The notes under the pieces: generated by a model
What the model saw: only the letters and a program-made list of their open reading frames with translations
Told to the model about the DNA's origin: nothing
Database searches by the model: none
Translations under genes and position numbers: made by a program
Shown here: positions 54,449 through 61,931 of the stretch, piece after piece
How the letters are laid out: each line of letters starts with the position of its first letter
How positions within the stretch are numbered: position 1 is the first letter of the stretch
From: Glycomyces artemisiae
Lineage (GTDB): Bacteria; Actinomycetota; Actinomycetes; Mycobacteriales; Micromonosporaceae
Length of the DNA: 64,000 nt
Reading direction: 5' to 3'
Assembly (NCBI RefSeq): GCF_003002955.1
Contig: NZ_PVTJ01000001.1
Coordinates: 806,001-870,000, forward strand

Positions 54449-55306
54449 CTAGCGCTCGATCTTGTCGAGGTGGAGCATGCGGGCGAGGTTCTTGTCGAGC
54501 TCGTCGTCCCGGAAGATCTTCTTCCAGTCCTCCTTGATGATCGACTCGCGGCCGTAGTCCATGGCGATGAGGCACGCCTCGCTGAACGGGTTGTCGCCGC
54601 GGAGGCCGTTCGCCAGGGCGACCTGGGTGTGGCCCAAGAGGATCGAGCGGGCGGCGGCCTCGGGGACGCCCATCGTGTTGACGGCCTCGTCGAGGGACTC
54701 CTTCAGGAGCGCGCCGACCATGCACGCGATGGTCTCGACCAGGGTCGGCTCCAGCTGCGCGAGCTGCTTCACCGTCACCCAGTGGACGTCGATCACCGGC
54801 GCGTAGATCGCGCGCACGGTCGCCTCCACGAGGGCCTTCGCGGCCGGGTCGTCGGACTCGACCGCGGCGATGGCGTCCTGGGGGGCCGCGATGCCGCCGA
54901 AGGTGTCCGCGTACTCCTCGGGCGTGGTGCGCTGCAAGAAGATCGACGGGTGGCACGGGTGGGCCACGGCCTGCACGACGTCGTCGCGCTTGGTAAGCAG
55001 CCCCGCGTAGGCGGCGGCCGGGTCCAGGGTCAGGGCGATCGCGCCGGACTTCATGAGCGGCACCGCCTCGGCCGTGACCGACTGGAGTGCCAGGTCAGGG
55101 ACGGCGAGGACCACGATGTCGGCGTCGGCCACGGCCGCGGCCAGGTCGGTCAGCTCGCGGCCCGCGTCGGTCGTGCGCTGGCGTCCAGCGGGGGAGTTCT
55201 CCACGTAGGCGACGGTGTGCGCGGTCTTCACCAGGTTGTCGGAGACGCGCATGCCCATCTTGCCGCCCGCCCCGATCACGGCGATGTTGTAGGTCTCGGT
55301 GCTCAT
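54449..55306 (-). CDS. apnO: D-apionate oxidoisomerase-like enzyme (PGDH_C family)
   Basis: A 285-residue NAD-dependent enzyme: Rossmann motif 'IAVIGAGGKMGMRVSDNL' (GAGGKMG at 12-18) and an all-helical C-terminus of the phosphogluconate-dehydrogenase-C type with 'VAHPCHPSIF' (His115, Cys117, His118). This family includes ApnO, which converts D-apionate to 3-oxo-isoapionate. The function follows from family and from the four matching pathway enzymes in the same operon. It overlaps the preceding gene by 4 bp (ATGA) and has TTGAGGAG before its ATG. A different 3-hydroxy-acid substrate cannot be excluded. Confidence 0.8.
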   Translation of the reverse strand: MSTETYNIAVIGAGGKMGMRVSDNLVKTAHTVAYVENSPAGRQRTTDAGRELTDLAAAVADADIVVLAVPDLALQSVTAEAVPLMKSGAIALTLDPAAAYAGLLTKRDDVVQAVAHPCHPSIFLQRTTPEEYADTFGGIAAPQDAIAAVESDDPAAKALVEATVRAIYAPVIDVHWVTVKQLAQLEPTLVETIACMVGALLKESLDEAVNTMGVPEAAARSILLGHTQVALANGLRGDNPFSEACLIAMDYGRESIIKEDWKKIFRDDELDKNLARMLHLDKIER

Positions 55307-56097
55307 CGGATGCTCCTCAAATAGTCCACTGTGGTTCGTGTCCAGGCCTGCTCGGCGCGGACGGTCGCTTCGGCGCCGCCCTGCCACGGCAGCCAGTGCT
55401 CGACGATCTCGTTGACGCCCCGCTCGCGCGGGCGCACCTCCCGCAGCAGGTGCGGGTAGTCGTGCAGGCCGGTCCCCATCGCCGCGCCCGAGTAGGTGAA
55501 CCCCACCCAGCCGTCCTGCCTGGCGAACGCGAAGTCCTTGGCGTGCACGTTGACCGTGACGGGCGCCGCGAGCTCCACGACCTCCGTCGGCCGCTCCAGC
55601 CTCGCGACCACGTTGGCCGGGTCGAGGCAGACGCCGATGTTGGGGCTGCCGGTCGCGGCTACCAATTCGACTAGGTCCTTGGTCGATACCTGCTCGTACG
55701 TTTCGAGGGCGAGCGTGACGCCCTGGGATTCGTAGGCCGGGAGCGCTTCGGTCAGCCAGGCGAGCGCCTGCGGGAGGGTCGGCGCCGAGTCCGGGCCGGT
55801 GACCATGCTCCGCACCAGCTTCGCTTCAAAGATTTCGGCGAGGGCCAGGAAGCGGGACAGGTGCTCGGGCTCGATTCCCTTGGTGCCCAGCTCGATCTGG
55901 AGGCCCAGGTCGCGGGCCGCACCCGCGGCGTCCTTCAGTTCCCGGTCGGTCATGCCTTCGAGCGGCGCGTAGTCGCAGATCTGGAAGAGGTCCACGTCGA
56001 GTTCGCGGGTCGCCTCGAACTCGTCAATCAAGGACAGCGGGCGCTCGACCCGGTCCGAGTGCTGCCAGAAGAAGGCGTAGCTCCCCAGCCCGATCAT
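55303..56097 (-). CDS. oiaC: 3-oxo-isoapionate decarboxylase-like TIM-barrel protein
   Basis: A 264-residue member of the AP-endonuclease-2/sugar-phosphate isomerase-epimerase fold. Metal ligands are apparent as Glu132 ('LALETYE'), Asp159 ('VCLDPAN'), His185 ('NVHAKD') and Glu230 or Glu233 ('VNEIVEHW'). OiaC of this fold decarboxylates 3-oxo-isoapionate to L-erythrulose, the step between ApnO and the kinase next door. By sequence alone it could be an isomerase; context gives the assignment. It overlaps its neighbours on both sides by 4 bp. Confidence 0.75.
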   Translation of the reverse strand: MIGLGSYAFFWQHSDRVERPLSLIDEFEATRELDVDLFQICDYAPLEGMTDRELKDAAGAARDLGLQIELGTKGIEPEHLSRFLALAEIFEAKLVRSMVTGPDSAPTLPQALAWLTEALPAYESQGVTLALETYEQVSTKDLVELVAATGSPNIGVCLDPANVVARLERPTEVVELAAPVTVNVHAKDFAFARQDGWVGFTYSGAAMGTGLHDYPHLLREVRPRERGVNEIVEHWLPWQGGAEATVRAEQAWTRTTVDYLRSIR

Positions 56098-56864
56098 GAC
56101 GCCACCCTGGTTTCAGCGAGTGCCGTCGCCTCGTCGAGCACCGCCGCCAGGTTCTCCGGGTCGTGCGCGAACCGGCCCAGGAACAGGCCGTCGACCGACC
56201 GCCCCAGCTCGGTCAGCAGGCCCGGACCCGCCGAACCGCCGTAGATCACCGAGGAGCCCGCGCGGTCGGGCGCGATGTCCAGCGCCATACGCAAGGCCGT
56301 CGTCACCGCCGCGATGTGCTCCACCGGAGCGGGCTCGGACGCGCCGATCGCCCACACAGGCTCGTACGCGACCACGACCGGCCCGGCCGGTGCGCCCGAC
56401 AGGCTCCGACGCAGCTGCGCCACCGTCGCGGCCGCGGCGGCCTTGGGGCCCAAGCGTTCCGCTTCGCCGACGCACACCAGCGGCGTCACGCCGCCGCGCA
56501 GCGAAGCCGCAGCCTTCGCCGCCACCGCGTCGTCGGTCTCGCCGAACAGGCGGCGGCGCTCGGCGTGCCCGATCTCCGCAATGGACACCCCGACCTCCGC
56601 GAGCTCGGCCGCGCTCACTTCGCCGGTGAACGGGCCCGAGTCCGCGACGGCCACGTCCTGCGCGCCGATCCGGACCGGCGACCCTGCGAACGCGTCGCGC
56701 GCGGGAAGGATCTGGAGGTAGGTCGGGATCACGAACAGCTCGACCGCGCCCGAGGCCAGGCCCGGGTGCGAGCGCACGCGGTCGGCGACGCGCGCGAACC
56801 AGTCCTTCGCTGCGGCGTGCCCGAAGTACATCTTCAGGCTCACCCCGACCACCACCGGCGCCAT
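56094..56864 (-). CDS. lerI: Triose-phosphate-isomerase-like L-erythrulose-1-phosphate isomerase
   Basis: A 256-residue TIM homologue with the catalytic set Lys11, His100 ('AEIGHAERR') and Glu168 ('VAYEPVWAIG') and the phosphate-binding 'YGGSAGPG'. The usual Asn-x-Lys of glycolytic TIM is Ser-x-Lys here ('VSLKMY'), which argues for a different substrate. LerI isomerises L-erythrulose 1-phosphate to D-erythrulose 4-phosphate. The start overlaps the RpiB stop by one base (TGATG), which also fixes it against a longer in-frame extension. Confidence 0.8.
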   Translation of the reverse strand: MAPVVVGVSLKMYFGHAAAKDWFARVADRVRSHPGLASGAVELFVIPTYLQILPARDAFAGSPVRIGAQDVAVADSGPFTGEVSAAELAEVGVSIAEIGHAERRRLFGETDDAVAAKAAASLRGGVTPLVCVGEAERLGPKAAAAATVAQLRRSLSGAPAGPVVVAYEPVWAIGASEPAPVEHIAAVTTALRMALDIAPDRAGSSVIYGGSAGPGLLTELGRSVDGLFLGRFAHDPENLAAVLDEATALAETRVAS

Positions 56865-57349
56865 CAGCAGGACCCGGTCGTCTCGAACTCGCCGATGACC
56901 GCGACCTTCTCGGCCGAGGCGCTCTGCGGGTCGAAGCGGTAGTCGAGCCACTCGCGGACCAGGCGCCGCGCCAGCTCGACGCCGATCACGCGCTGGCCCA
57001 TGGTGAGGACCTGGGCGTCGTTGGAGAGGACGCTCCGCTCGACGGAGAAGCTGTCGTGGGCCGTGGCGGCCCGGATGCCGGGGACCTTGTTGGCGGCGAT
57101 GGCGACCCCGAGGCCGGTGCCGCAGATGAGGAGGGCCCGGTCGGCCTCGCCGTCGGCGACGCGCTGGGCCGCCTCGATGGCGACCTTCGGGTACGGGGTG
57201 TGGCCCTCGGCGTCCACGCCGACGTCCACTACGGACGCGACACCGGCGTGGCCTTCGAGGTCCCGCTTGAGGATCTCCTTGTAGTCGAAGCCGGCGTCGT
57301 CGCTGCCGACGACGATGCGCAGCGGCGCAGTACGCAGGGGCTCAGGCAT
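56864..57349 (-). CDS. derI: RpiB-family D-erythrulose-4-phosphate isomerase
   Basis: A 161-residue RpiB/LacAB-fold isomerase: '[12 protein letters not shown]' at residues 13-24, the catalytic Cys76 in '[16 protein letters not shown]' and '[20 protein letters not shown]' (split). RpiB homologues in tetrose-alcohol and apionate operons (DerI/EryI) convert D-erythrulose 4-phosphate to D-erythrose 4-phosphate, which enters the pentose phosphate pathway. A role as ribose-5-phosphate isomerase B is the alternative. It overlaps the kinase gene by 8 bp. Confidence 0.82.
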
Positions 57350-59069
57350 GGTGGTTCCTTCCTTCGAACAGTTCGCCGATCGCGGTGGCGATCAGCGCGA
57401 GGGAGTGCGCGCCCGGGTCGGGGGTGCCGAGGCTCTTCTCGGCGTGCGGGCGGGCGCGGCCCATGCGGGGCAGGAGCTCCGCGGTGGCTTTCGCGGCGCG
57501 CGAGGCGTCCTCGGCGGCGGCTTTCCACGCGGTGGGGAGATCCGCTCCGGCGTCTGCGTTGCGCTGCAAGGCTTCGGCGAACGGCACGAGCGCGTCCACA
57601 AGGGTCTTGTCGCCGACCTCGGCCTTGCCGTAGTCCATGACGCCCTTGGCGCCGTCGGCCACTCCGGCGGCGACGTCGGCTGCCGTGGGCTTCCCGTGGT
57701 CGCCCAGGCGTTCGGCGACGCCGGTGAGGATCACGCCCCACAGCGCGCCGGAGGTGCCCCCGGCCTTGTCGGCCCACGCCGCGGCGGCACGGGCCAGGGT
57801 GGTGCCCGCGCCGGCCCCGCTTGCGGCTGAACCAGCGGCGAGCGCGGCCTTCGCGCCGCGCTGCATGCCGATCCCGTGGTCGCCGTCTCCGGCGACGGCG
57901 TCGATGCGGCCGAGTTCGTCCACATTGGCGTCGACGGTGGCGGCGATGACCTCCAGGGCGGCGCGGACCGTGCCCGCGGCCTCCCGGGACGCCTCGTCGG
58001 ATTCGGGGACGGCGTCCGCATCCGCGGCACCGTTCCCGTTGGCGGCCTTGAGCTGTGCAGGCGTGACGGACCCGCGGCGGTAGGCCGGGGCGTCAACGGG
58101 GGTCTCCCACAGCGCTTCGAGTTCGTCGTCGAGCCAGAACAGGGTGAGCGAGGTCCCGGCCATGTCGAAGCTCGTGCAGTACTCGCCCACGTGCGGGTCC
58201 ACGATGACGAGTCCCGCCGCCTCAAGCAGCTGGGCGACCCGCCGGTAGACGACGAACAGCTCCTCGTATTTCAGTGAGCCGAGCCCGTTGAGGATCGGCA
58301 CGACCCGCGCGCCCGCGGCGGCGATCCCCTCGGGGACCTCCTCCAGGAGCTTGGCGACGAGCAGTTCCGCGAGGCCGTCGGCGGTCGGAATGTCAGTCTC
58401 GTCGATGCCGGGCTCGCCGTGGATGCCGAGCCCGACCGCCATGCGGCCCTCGGGGACCGAGAACAGCGGCTCCTCGGCGCCGGGGAGCGTGCAGCCGGAG
58501 AACGCGACGCCGATCGAACGGGTGCGCTCGTTGGCGAGCCGCGCGAGGCGCTCGACCCCGGCGAGGTCGTTCCCGGCCTCGGCAGCGGCGGCGGCGATGC
58601 GGAAGACCGCGAGGTCCCCGGCGATGCCGCGCCGCTTGTGGCGTTCTTCCGGTGCGGCGCTGAAGATGTCGTCGGTGACGGCCACCGTCGCGCACGGGAT
58701 GCCTTCGGCGCGCAGGCGCTCCTGGGCCGCGTCGAAGTTGAGCACGTCCCCGGCGTAGTTCCCGTAGGTGAACAGGACGCCGCCGCCGTTGTCGGCGGCC
58801 TTCGCGACCGCCTGGATCTGCTGCGCCGAAGGCGAGGCGAACAGGTTGCCCATGGCCGCGCCGTGCGCGAGGCCCTGGCCGACGAGGCCGCCGAACGCCG
58901 GGTAGTGCCCGGACCCGCCGCCGACCACGACGGCGACCTGGCCGCGCGGCGACTCGGTGGAGCGGACGACGCCGCCGGTCACGCGCTGCACGTGACGGCC
59001 GTTCGCGGCCGCGAAGCCGTCGGTCATCTCGTCGGCGAAGTCGGCGGGGTCGTTCCAGATCCGGGTCAT
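57342..59069 (-). CDS. lerK: DAK-family L-erythrulose kinase (DhaK-DhaL fusion)
   Basis: A 575-residue ATP-dependent kinase. The DhaK domain has '[15 protein letters not shown]' (48-62) and His217 in 'GLGIHGEPG', which forms the hemiaminal with the substrate carbonyl. The DhaL domain has the Mg-ATP acids '[13 protein letters not shown]' (390-402) and 'GGTSGALWG'. Such single-chain kinases act on dihydroxyacetone or, in LerK/DerK types, on erythrulose. The TIM and RpiB homologues beside it favour L-erythrulose. It overlaps both neighbours. Confidence 0.87.
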
Positions 59070-60451
59070 CGCGCGCCCGCCTCCTCAAGGTCCGGTGCGG
59101 TCGCGGACTTCCCGCGGCGCGCGAGCGCCACCATGAGCACCGCCGACAGGAGCATGAACCCGCCGACCACGGCCATCGCGGTCTCGTACCCGCCGGTCCA
59201 GTCGTGGATCGCGCCGGTGACGTACGGGGCGCTGAACCCGGCGAGGTTGCCGACCGTGTTGATGAGCGCGACGCCCGCCGCGGCGGCGGCGCCGGTCAGG
59301 AACCGGGTCGGGAGCGTCCAGAAGTTCGGGAGCGCCGCGAAGATCGCGCAGGCCGTCACGGTGATGACCGCGATGGTCGCCGCGGGGGAGTCCACGAGCA
59401 GCGCCAGCGGGATCGAGGCCGCGCCGAGCATGGCCGGGACGGCGATGTGCCAGGTCTTGAGGCCGCGCTTCGAGGCGTCCTTGGACCAGAAGTACATGAC
59501 CACGGCCGCGGGCAGGTACGGGATCGCGGTGATGAGGCCCTTCTCGAACACGTCGAACTCGGTGCCGGCCGCGGCCTGGAACCCGTCGATGATCGTGGGC
59601 AGGAAGAACGCGAGGGCGTACAGGCCGTAGATGAAGCCGAAGTAGATGAAGGACAGCGTCCAGACGCGTCCGCTCTTGAAGGCGTGCCGCACGGACGGGT
59701 GCTTTTCGCTCGCCTCGGTGGTCTCGCGCTCGGCTTCGAGGGCGCCGGTGAGCCAGGTCTGCTCCTCGGGGGTGAGCCACTTGGCGTCGGCGGGCTTGTC
59801 CTTGAGGTAGAACCAGGCGATGATCCCGACGACGATCGCGGGGATCGCCACGCCCATGAACATGAAGCGCCAGCCTTCGAGGCCGAAGAACACGCCGTGC
59901 TGCTGGATGAGGGCGCCCGCCAGGGGCGCGCCGATCACCGTCGTCAGGGGCTGGGCCAGGTAGAACAGCATGAGGATGCGGCCGCGGTACTGCGAGGGCA
60001 CCCACAGGCTCAGGAACAGGATCGCGCCGGGGAAGAAGCCGGCCTCGGCGACGCCGAGGAGGAAGCGGAGGGCCACGAGCTGCTCGAAGTTCTGCACCCA
60101 CGTGAACAGGAGCGCGACGACGCCCCAGCTGATCATGATGCGGGCGAGCCAGCGGCGGGCGCCGAACTTGTGGAGCGCCAGGTTGGACGGCACTTCCAGG
60201 ATGATGTAGCCGATGAAGAACACGCCGGACGCGAAGCCGAACTGGGCGGCGGAGAGCGCCAGGTCCCCGTTCATGCCGTTCGGTGCGGCGAACCCGATCG
60301 CGGTGCGGTCGAGGTAGTTGATGAAGAACATCAAGGCGACGAACGGCACGAGGCGGATCGAGACCTTGCGGATGGCGCTGCGGGCTACGGGCGGCGCTTC
60401 GGGGGCTGCTGACCGGTTCACGGTGTCTCCTGACATCGGCTCTGATGACAC
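59066..60451 (-). CDS. MFS transporter, ACS (anion:cation symporter) type
   Basis: A 461-residue 12-helix protein with the signature 'FFINYLDRTAIGFAAP' in the first helix, 'GFFIGYIILEVPSNLALHKFGARRW' (split) and 'GVAEAGFFPGAILFLSLWVPSQYRGR' (split), typical of the ACS family that imports sugar acids and other organic anions, consistent with apionate uptake. GTG is chosen as start because GGAG lies 9 bp upstream; an ATG five codons later is the alternative. It is the first gene of the six-gene operon. Confidence 0.88.
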   Translation of the reverse strand: MSSEPMSGDTVNRSAAPEAPPVARSAIRKVSIRLVPFVALMFFINYLDRTAIGFAAPNGMNGDLALSAAQFGFASGVFFIGYIILEVPSNLALHKFGARRWLARIMISWGVVALLFTWVQNFEQLVALRFLLGVAEAGFFPGAILFLSLWVPSQYRGRILMLFYLAQPLTTVIGAPLAGALIQQHGVFFGLEGWRFMFMGVAIPAIVVGIIAWFYLKDKPADAKWLTPEEQTWLTGALEAERETTEASEKHPSVRHAFKSGRVWTLSFIYFGFIYGLYALAFFLPTIIDGFQAAAGTEFDVFEKGLITAIPYLPAAVVMYFWSKDASKRGLKTWHIAVPAMLGAASIPLALLVDSPAATIAVITVTACAIFAALPNFWTLPTRFLTGAAAAAGVALINTVGNLAGFSAPYVTGAIHDWTGGYETAMAVVGGFMLLSAVLMVALARRGKSATAPDLEEAGAR

Positions 60452-60465
60452 TGGGGGCGTCTCCC

Positions 60466-60494
60466 ATATTGGCGAACCGGTTGACCAATTGCAA
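60466..60494 (-). promoter_or_regulatory. Promoter and GntR operator of the apionate operon
   Basis: On the minus strand TTGCAA and CAATAT are 17 bp apart. The spacer is filled by a 22-bp dyad (60468-60489): outer ATTGG and CCAAT arms around AACCGGTT, 9 of 11 pairs matching. The site lies 17 bp before the transporter start and next to the divergent FadR-type regulator. Confidence 0.72.
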
Positions 60495-60657
60495 CACGGA
60501 GTCCCACATGTTGATCATTCTGTAATGTTCCGGCAGCTCGCAGCCGTTGCCGGGAATCCCCCGACCGGCCCCTGACCGCCTGGACCGCAACTAGACCGGC
60601 GTCGCACTCGGGGCGGAAGGGTGGTTTCGCCGCGCAAAAGGACGGTAAGTTTCATCC

Positions 60658-61398
60658 ATGCCCGCCTACCCAGGAGACCGCGCCGCCGACATCGCCGCCT
60701 CGCTCGGCGCCCTGCCGAGCAGCAGCCCGGTCTCGGAGGTCGCGCGCCAGCTCCTCGACCTGTTCACCAGCGGATCCATCGAGCCCGGGACGCGCCTGCC
60801 CGCCGAGCGCCAGCTCGCCACCACCCTCGGCGTCGGCCGCTCCGCCGTGCGCGAGGCCCTCGCCGCGCTCGAACTCCTCGGCATCGTCGACGTGCGCCCA
60901 GGCTCGGGCACCTACCTGCGCGGCACCGCCTCCGAACTGCTCCCGCAGACCCTGCGCTGGGGCCTGCTCATCGGCCGCCGCAAGACTGACGAACTCCTCG
61001 AACTGCGCTCGGGCCTGGAGATCTACGTGGCCCGCCTCGCCGCCTCGAACGCCACCGAGGACGACCTCGCCGCGCTCGCCGGGCACGTGGCGCGCATGCG
61101 CGAATCCGAGGACCTGGCCGCCTTCGCCGAGGCCGACCGCGACTTCCACAACGGGCTCGCCCGCGCCGCGGGCAACGAGGTCCTCATCGACCTCCTCGAC
61201 GTGGTGCGCTCCCTCCTCCAGGTCTACGCCGACCGCGCCGTCTCCGGCGACGAGGAGGCCCGCACCGCCCTCGACGAGCACGACGCGATCCTGCGCGCCG
61301 TGACCTCCCGCGACCACGACGCCGCCGCCTCCGCGATGGCCGTCCACATGGCCACCGCCTCGATCCGCCTCGCGGCAGAGCAGGCGGGCCGACCATGA
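60658..61398 (+). CDS. FadR-subfamily GntR regulator of the apionate operon
   Basis: A 246-residue protein: winged helix 'VSEVARQLLDLFTSGSIEPGTRLPAERQLATTLGVGRSAVREALAAL' (residues 24-70, quoted ends 'EPGTRLPAERQLATTLGVG') and FadR-C domain with 'ELRSGLEIYVARLAA', 'FAEADRDFHNGLARAAGN' and 'DEHDAILRAV', keeping the Asp/His metal-type ligands of this domain. It should release the divergent operon on binding a sugar acid. Its stop overlaps the SUKH-like gene by 4 bp. Confidence 0.92.
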   Translation: MPAYPGDRAADIAASLGALPSSSPVSEVARQLLDLFTSGSIEPGTRLPAERQLATTLGVGRSAVREALAALELLGIVDVRPGSGTYLRGTASELLPQTLRWGLLIGRRKTDELLELRSGLEIYVARLAASNATEDDLAALAGHVARMRESEDLAAFAEADRDFHNGLARAAGNEVLIDLLDVVRSLLQVYADRAVSGDEEARTALDEHDAILRAVTSRDHDAAASAMAVHMATASIRLAAEQAGRP

Positions 61399-61931
61399 CC
61401 GCCGCGCCGCCCTCCGACAAGACCGCGTTCGTCTGGGGCCCAGACGACCTCATGGAACTCCCGCGCGCCGGGCTCCTCGAACTCGGCGTCCCGGCCGCCG
61501 GACTCCCCGAGGACGACTGGGTGCCCCGGCTCGTGCCCGGCGTGTACGACGCCGACGGCGCGCCCGAGCCGCTGCAGCCGTTCGCGGTGATCGAGCTCCA
61601 GGCCGGCGACGTCACCGTCGACATGCGGCTGATCCTCCTCGGCACGGTCCCCGGCTCCGCGAACCTGCTGTACGTCCTCGACCCGGCCTCGGGCGAGGTC
61701 CTCCAGTTCGACCGGCGCAGCCGCGGCGTACGCGGCGTGAACTCCTCCTACCGCTGGTTCGTGGAGTTCCTGTGGCAGATCGAGGCCGCGAAGAAGCACC
61801 GCGGCGCCGCCGATCTCGCAGGCGTCCTCAACCCGGGCCTGCGCGCGACGCTCCGGTCCGTCGACCCGTTCGCGTTCCAGGCCGAGCAGTGGTGGCCCGC
61901 GGTGTGGAAGGAACTCGCTCCTTCTGGGTAA
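61395..61931 (+). CDS. SUKH-4-like immunity-family protein
   Basis: A 178-residue protein with the SUKH pattern: 'DDLMELPRAGLLELGVPAAG', 'PFAVIELQAG', 'LLYVLDPASGEVLQFD' and 'GVNSSYRWFVEFLWQIE', the last being the typical SUKH-4 end segment with NsS and aromatic residues. SUKH proteins often act as immunity proteins for secreted toxins, but no toxin adjoins; it is translationally coupled to the GntR regulator. The assignment by eye is moderate. Confidence 0.68.
   Translation: MTAAPPSDKTAFVWGPDDLMELPRAGLLELGVPAAGLPEDDWVPRLVPGVYDADGAPEPLQPFAVIELQAGDVTVDMRLILLGTVPGSANLLYVLDPASGEVLQFDRRSRGVRGVNSSYRWFVEFLWQIEAAKKHRGAADLAGVLNPGLRATLRSVDPFAFQAEQWWPAVWKELAPSG

Follow-up and report, generated by a model that had tools for sequence, protein, structure and literature searches.

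D-Apiose is a sugar of pectin, in which it occurs in rhamnogalacturonan II, and of many plant glycosides. The degradation of D-apionate reportedly proceeds through ApnO, OiaC, LerK, LerI and DerI, as described by Carter et al. 2018; to our knowledge, neither a GntR regulator nor an operator nor an unlinked pair of genes for a short-chain dehydrogenase/reductase (SDR) and the lactonase ApnL formed part of that description. In this study, we analysed a window of 64,000 nucleotides from Glycomyces artemisiae (contig NZ_PVTJ01000001.1, positions 806,001 to 870,000), which contains an operon of six genes and a divergent GntR gene. This operon very probably encodes the lower half of an oxidative route for D-apiose. 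The upper half would consist of an SDR and an ApnL-like lactonase, which are encoded on another contig, termed C3, and would be under the control of the same regulator. Although the kind of pathway is already known, the assignments made here to the SDR (probably an apiose dehydrogenase) and to the transporter are new predictions, as is the regulon. The work of Carter et al. is cited and mentioned in PMC13001218 and PMC6302742, and according to PMC11747546, growth on D-apiose was observed for a strain in which D-apionolactonase, apiose dehydrogenase, ApnO, OiaK and OiaX genes are annotated. Our literature search found nothing that links Glycomyces to apiose or Microbacterium to apiose and catabolism.

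The operon is placed on contig C1 of the 5.79-Mb genome and runs on the minus strand from 60421 to 54449 in the order MFS (major facilitator superfamily), DAK, RpiB, TIM, AP_endonuc_2 and PGDH_C, with overlaps of 1–8 nucleotides at all five junctions. The GntR gene, which also encodes an FCD domain, starts at 60658. The preliminary description of six overlapping genes of these families on one strand was borne out, as all of the reading frames are open and all seven proteins exceed the Pfam gathering scores; moreover, each of the five enzyme families of the apionate route corresponds to one gene in the operon, as had been proposed. For the MFS gene, a GTG start at 60421, with AGGAG at 60431–60427, was judged by eye to be likelier than the GTG at 60451. 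PGDH_C is not a common gene, since searches found it in only 10 of 397 genomes from the order and in 8 of 396 from the phylum, counts that include the genome studied here. This genome has one copy each of PGDH_C and Dak1, two of TIM and three of RpiB, and the RpiB of the operon is approximately 35% identical to the other two. The second TIM, on contig C5, has the ordinary GNWKM, while that of the operon begins with GVSLKM; the C5 gene is preceded by genes of 332 and 399 amino acids in a gap-pgk-tpi-like order, in which the gap and pgk names are given by size and order only. The serine that was noted previously in place of asparagine, at what we take to be Asn11 of TIM, is real (G-V-S-L-K), but it lies two residues ahead of the catalytic lysine rather than directly before it. 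The histidine and glutamate of the TIM site are retained, and the serine recurs in all of the 38 copies that were read, that of the window among them, as well as in a Rhizobium TIM from a cluster with OiaX.

In the xylose-isomerase-like TIM-barrel protein, E132, D159, H185 and E233 were invariant across 23 aligned sequences, and it matches PF01261, the family to which OiaC presumably belongs. The PGDH_C protein is related to PDB 5t57 (E 3e-59), the letters of which are those of the Cupriavidus necator N-1 PGDH_C at 100%, and is 40–47% identical to PGDH_C proteins that are encoded with OiaX-type genes. A Pfam scan of the six operon proteins detected neither the OiaX (RuBisCO-like) nor the OiaK family. 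The closest solved structures to the TIM and RpiB proteins were PDB 3s6d (putative TIM) and 3qd5 (putative RpiB), both of which we assume to be from Coccidioides; if this is right, it hints at a fungal erythrulose route.

According to the preliminary description, the dehydrogenase and lactonase that would supply apionate were not here. This is true of the window, but the genome has candidates for both on contig C3, which overturned the idea that it lacks the upper half of the route. The ApnL-like gene is located at C3:124060–125736 and the SDR gene immediately upstream at C3:125738–126493; they are 48% and 73% identical, respectively, to the pair at locus L048. The usual D-apiose 1-dehydrogenase family is Gfo/Idh/MocA, which fits the Rhizobium OiaX cluster. 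The SDR encoded beside ApnL is proposed here instead as the probable D-apiose dehydrogenase.

The GntR regulator would connect the two halves. Between the operon and the GntR gene lies the dyad ATTGGCGAACCGGTTGACCAAT (9 of 11 positions symmetric), and its symmetrised form, with at most three mismatches allowed, occurred once in the window and in none of 100 shuffles. A FadR-type GntR gene that faces a dyad, as previously described, was thereby confirmed (PF00392 and PF07729 matched), while the statement that the dyad fills a promoter spacer was not, as no sigma-70-like promoter passed a scan of 60300–60700. An operator matrix was trained solely on 31 gntR sites, which came from 40 upstream regions after nine had been dropped for weak matches; the SDR sites were outside the training set. 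In the 19.5-kb stretch of C3, the best site is located 57 base pairs (bp) upstream of the SDR start and scores 17.9 bits. Among 350,451 control positions, none reached 15.5 bits and one reached 11.9 bits. The core 12-mer AACCGGTTGACC has three occurrences in the 5.79 Mb, one each at the operon and the SDR gene and a third within a called gene on contig C12; the last was ruled out as a third operator (6.3 bits). Nine SDR-ApnL pairs are separate from the enzyme block, and in eight of them, including that of the present genome, a site is located 45–70 bp upstream of the SDR gene (11.9–28.4 bits); in L117, it is the second site of the locus. Across the 42 core loci defined below, 39 have a motif of at least 15.5 bits, in 38 of them within 255 bp of the operon or gntR start, a count that is partly circular because the matrix was trained on 31 of 40 of these upstream regions. 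Additionally, six Microbacteriaceae-type loci have an extra site at putative sugar-binding protein genes (assigned by eye), which in five is situated between such a gene and gntR. An operator-like dyad, ATTGGTTGACCGGTCGACCAAT, was also observed in genome G115 (L144 7860–7881, 25.5 bits), at a GntR gene that is 44% identical and near an ApnL-like gene; the order-wide PGDH_C search gave no match in this genome.

The core loci comprised the window, 30 loci obtained in a single scan of genome contigs with the OiaC-type protein and 11 of 16 other genomes with PGDH_C; L029, which shares a contig with L063, and L031, L032, L033 and L036, which have distant PGDH_C genes and no operon, were left out. 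Several of the 42 come from one species or genus. The neighbouring genes were called by a simple codon-usage scorer with approximate starts and some missed genes, and therefore the seven window proteins were re-placed in the loci by tblastn. Nearly all of the 30 scanned loci belonged to Microbacterium, Agromyces, Agreia, Leifsonia, Agrococcus and Glycomyces, and one was labelled Planococcus. The DAK-RpiB-TIM-OiaC-ApnO block, in the same order and on the same strand within 6.5 kb, was found in 36 of the 42, mostly Microbacteriaceae; the other six are without one to three of its genes, and in L058 the DAK gene is truncated by the contig end. MFS was present in 28 loci, or 29 when L117 is counted, and 39 of the 41 loci besides the window have a GntR relative (49–90% identity). 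In a midpoint-rooted tree, three Glycomyces PGDH_C proteins were nested among those of Microbacteriaceae with good support, the nearest named relatives being Glycomyces dulcitolivorans and G. harbinensis; this grouping points to horizontal transfer. An apparent second PGDH_C copy in Agreia was rejected, as it is a siderophore-interacting-type protein (by eye) that had been clustered through a run-on frame.

The link of these operons to apiose comes from their surroundings. In Microbacterium, the operon is often extended by an SDR gene and another gene, of approximately 580 amino acids, and the sole NCBIfam match of the 582-amino-acid product in L048 was the D-apionate lactonase ApnL (E 1.2e-63, below the curated cut-off). 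An ApnL-like gene together with an SDR gene was located inside 23 of the 42 loci, 21 by BLAST label, L058 through L117 (the other end of its contig region) and L062 by family search. One protein cluster, present in 14 loci, was assigned to the apiosidase family PF13204 and another, also in 14, to the alpha-L-rhamnosidases, each from one scanned member. At the level of whole genomes, ApnL was present in 31 of 45 records and PF13204 in 24, of which 23 were above the cut-off. Of the 397 genomes of the order, 10 have PGDH_C, 8 have ApnL (two as weak matches) and 3 have both, versus 0.2 expected for co-occurrence (Fisher p 0.0006, provided that the same 397 were drawn for both genes). In 17 records that were hand-chosen from the 45, the SDR (E ≤ 1e-60) was found in six of seven genomes with ApnL versus none of nine distinct genomes without it. 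Moreover, locus L118 from a metagenome-assembled genome has OiaX-like, OiaK-like and ApnL-like genes (all below cut-offs), a PGDH_C that is 47% identical, a sugar ABC (ATP-binding cassette) importer and an SDR that is 60% identical to that of the window genome; of its 18 called genes, 14 were scanned, and none of these was named as Gfo/Idh/MocA. To the right of the window, L039 344–7383 (C1:870344–877383) contains genes for a LacI regulator, a sugar-binding protein, two proteins of permease size and an alpha-L-rhamnosidase that is 57% identical to one near a Microbacterium apionate operon; no GntR operator was found there (best score 7.3 bits).

The MFS protein is 64–68% identical to Cupriavidus, Caballeronia and Paraburkholderia proteins that are encoded beside PGDH_C, OiaK and usually OiaX. 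The plasmid records contained 12 relatives with at least 60% identity and 457 below 60%, the next eight listed being at 41–45%. Six of the 12 are clustered with PGDH_C, and four of these clusters continue with OiaK, three of them also with OiaX (Cupriavidus necator N-1 and two Caballeronia); in the fourth, from Paraburkholderia sprentiae, OiaX was not found within 6 kb. The two other clusters, from Pantoea and Erwinia, have DAK, TIM and OiaC-like genes. Apart from the steps above apionate, the OiaC and OiaX/OiaK routes share only apionate and 3-oxo-isoapionate before phosphorylation, and the MFS protein therefore probably imports D-apionate, as far as substrate and direction can be read from such contexts. 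In keeping with this, ApnL was present in 12 of 13 loci without MFS versus 11 of 29 with it (Fisher p 0.002) after two hand corrections: L058 was scored as having both MFS and ApnL, as L117 is the GntR-MFS-DAK contig end of the same genome with SDR-ApnL, and L062 was scored as having ApnL by family search. The uncorrected table gave 11 of 14 versus 10 of 28 (p 0.02). We rejected this association as proof, given the relatedness of the loci and the manual assignment of two of them.

The interpretation as a D-apionate operon, already put forward in the preliminary description, is supported because the orthologous operons join ApnL-like genes, some with apiosidase-family genes nearby; because, in Rhizobium, genes of the PGDH_C, TIM and RpiB families adjoin an annotated OiaX gene, a gene for a four-carbon acid sugar kinase and an above-cut-off ApnL; because the MFS relatives adjoin PGDH_C, OiaK and usually OiaX; and because the GntR dyad marks the unlinked SDR-ApnL pair of the same genome. 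Several observations weigh against it. None of the ApnL-like proteins of the 45 genome records reached the curated cut-off of NF049900, and this model, the only NCBIfam match of the C3 protein, gave it 175 of the 750 bits required (E 1.7e-51, best over residues 8–214). The genome has no match to the apiosidase family PF13204. In the NCBIfam scan, neither the PGDH_C nor the TIM-barrel protein was named as ApnO or OiaC, although it was not established that the collection includes such models. Clustering of these two proteins away from ApnO and OiaC had been named beforehand as a result that would speak against the assignment; this comparison was run in part, and in the PGDH_C tree the window protein belongs to a clade separate from the PGDH_C of OiaX contexts. 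Furthermore, L026 and L030 have the operon and no site of 15.5 bits, the SDR-ApnL pair of L110 is without the motif, as is L118 (best 1.9 bits), and G. dulcitolivorans has an ApnL without an adjoining SDR match or motif. For the remaining six of the 12 close MFS relatives, which all come from Rhizobium and represent approximately four distinct strains, no tested pathway gene was found within 6 kb, and their scanned neighbours look unrelated. Finally, 14 of the 45 genome records (Glycomyces harbinensis counted twice) are without ApnL.

The last point also favours a different sugar acid as the substrate, for example a linear C5 aldonate whose C4 centre is suitable, from which PGDH_C would form a 3-oxo acid and the TIM barrel erythrulose, the rest being unchanged: although in three of these 14 records (G490, G564 and G626) the only PGDH_C genes are distant ones, the remaining 11 (one genome twice) have the operon or a reduced form of it. 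Decarboxylation of a 3-oxo-pentonate likewise yields erythrulose, and the OiaC-type family is not confined to apionate, because distant OiaC-like proteins (29–31% identity) in Paracoccus and Pararhizobium are encoded beside genes for an SDR, a DAK-type protein and a split transketolase, in a stretch without an annotated PGDH_C. These gene sets (L168 4180–9568 and L169 4207–9602), in which the DAK-type gene is a ‘dhaL’ of kinase size and TRAP transporter genes are present, represent a pathway different from the apionate route. We nevertheless consider another sugar acid unlikely in view of the 23 loci that include ApnL-like genes, the apiosidase-family genes near some of them, the operator that the operon shares with the SDR-ApnL pair and the MFS that it shares with the PGDH_C-OiaK clusters.

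The operon could also serve L-erythrulose or a tetritol, with two accessory genes that are unrelated to apionate. The DAK, TIM and RpiB genes fit this, as LerK, LerI and DerI are named as enzymes of tetritol breakdown in PMC10733421. However, L027, L028 and L069 keep GntR-OiaC-ApnO, two of them with MFS, and no DAK, RpiB or TIM adjoins, which makes OiaC and ApnO the core rather than accessories; all three genomes have a DAK homologue elsewhere (the match in G051 reads through one stop), in two of them with TIM and RpiB relatives within approximately 8 kb. Moreover, none of the six operon proteins matched a polyol dehydrogenase family in the Pfam scan, and we regard a tetritol operon as highly improbable.

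For the D-apiose route, the gene families, their conserved order, their contexts and the shared motif suggest the following course. D-apiose would be converted to D-apionate by the SDR dehydrogenase and the ApnL-like lactonase encoded on C3, and D-apionate would also be imported by the MFS protein. The PGDH_C protein would oxidise and rearrange D-apionate to 3-oxo-isoapionate (the ApnO step), and the TIM-barrel protein would decarboxylate the latter to L-erythrulose (OiaC). The GntR protein, bound to the dyad, would repress both halves until it is released by a compound of the pathway. There is about an even chance that four proposals hold jointly: that the SDR is a D-apiose 1-dehydrogenase outside Gfo/Idh/MocA, that D-apionate import is the dedicated function of the MFS protein, that strains with the operon and MFS but no ApnL use D-apionate released by other microbes, and that one GntR protein with an operator near ATTGGYNAACCGGTTGACCAAT controls both halves. 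If the D-apiose reading of the operon is right, the OiaC branch of apiose breakdown recurs in Microbacteriaceae and Glycomyces as a trait that has apparently spread horizontally, for which candidates for the dehydrogenase, importer and regulator are now named, and the 22-bp motif could be used to find further apiose genes in genomes. Table 1 lists the features of the locus; a SUKH-4 immunity-type gene (PF14435, 58 bits) follows at window positions 61395–61931, beginning 4 nucleotides inside the end of the GntR gene.

Table 1. Features of the putative D-apionate operon and its regulator (window positions; scores from Pfam and NCBIfam models)
Feature	Position	Strand	Remarks
ACS-type MFS transporter, probable D-apionate importer	59066..60421	-	MFS_1 (PF07690) 163 bits; alternative starts 60436, 60451
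Single-chain DAK kinase, probable L-erythrulose 1-kinase (LerK type)	57342..59069	-	NF011049 747 bits, above cut-off; Dak1 371 bits, Dak2 165 bits
RpiB	56864..57349	-	LacAB_rpiB 157 bits; NF051858 (DerI) 156 bits, below cut-off of 240; TIGR02133 203 bits, above cut-off
TIM	56094..56864	-	TIM (PF00121) 174 bits
Xylose-isomerase-like TIM barrel, probable 3-oxo-isoapionate decarboxylase (OiaC type)	55303..56097	-	AP_endonuc_2 (PF01261) 65.5 bits
NAD-binding PGDH_C protein, probable D-apionate oxidoisomerase (ApnO type)	54449..55306	-	PGDH_C (PF16896) 189.5 bits
FadR-type GntR regulator (GntR + FCD)	60658..61398	+	GntR (PF00392) 63 bits; FCD (PF07729) 96 bits
22-bp dyad, predicted operator	60468..60489	.	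9/11 positions symmetric

Compared with known systems, the genome shares its PGDH_C (42% identity), the Ser-type TIM, RpiB and ApnL with the OiaX route of Rhizobium anhuiense T24 (L123), in which RpiB (DerI model) and ApnL are above cut-off. The Rhizobium route differs in having an annotated OiaX and a four-carbon acid sugar kinase instead of OiaC, DhaK and DhaL as separate genes rather than the single-chain DAK, and a Gfo/Idh/MocA dehydrogenase with an ABC importer instead of the SDR and MFS. In the pBB1 cluster of Cupriavidus necator N-1 (L170), the MFS is 66.9% and PGDH_C 40.5% identical, and the route proceeds via OiaK (above the curated cut-off) and a RuBisCO-like protein (OiaX-like, below it); no relative of OiaC or DAK was detected within 10 kb (E 1e-6). 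Furthermore, a plasmid of Haloarcula sp. JP-L23 (L125 4195–8837) has a PGDH_C-like gene, 41% identical, near annotated ribulose 1,5-bisphosphate carboxylase and four-carbon acid sugar kinase genes, and this may be an archaeal apionate cluster. In Pantoea At-9b and Erwinia E602, RpiB is divergent (47–49% identical) and a sugar-binding regulator is annotated, with no GntR relative found in the stretch, while the plasmids of both have an MFS-DAK-TIM-OiaC-PGDH_C operon in the same order (48–71% identical). With the route reportedly described by Carter et al. 2018, the present locus has in common all five enzyme families, each represented by a single gene and here assembled in one operon.

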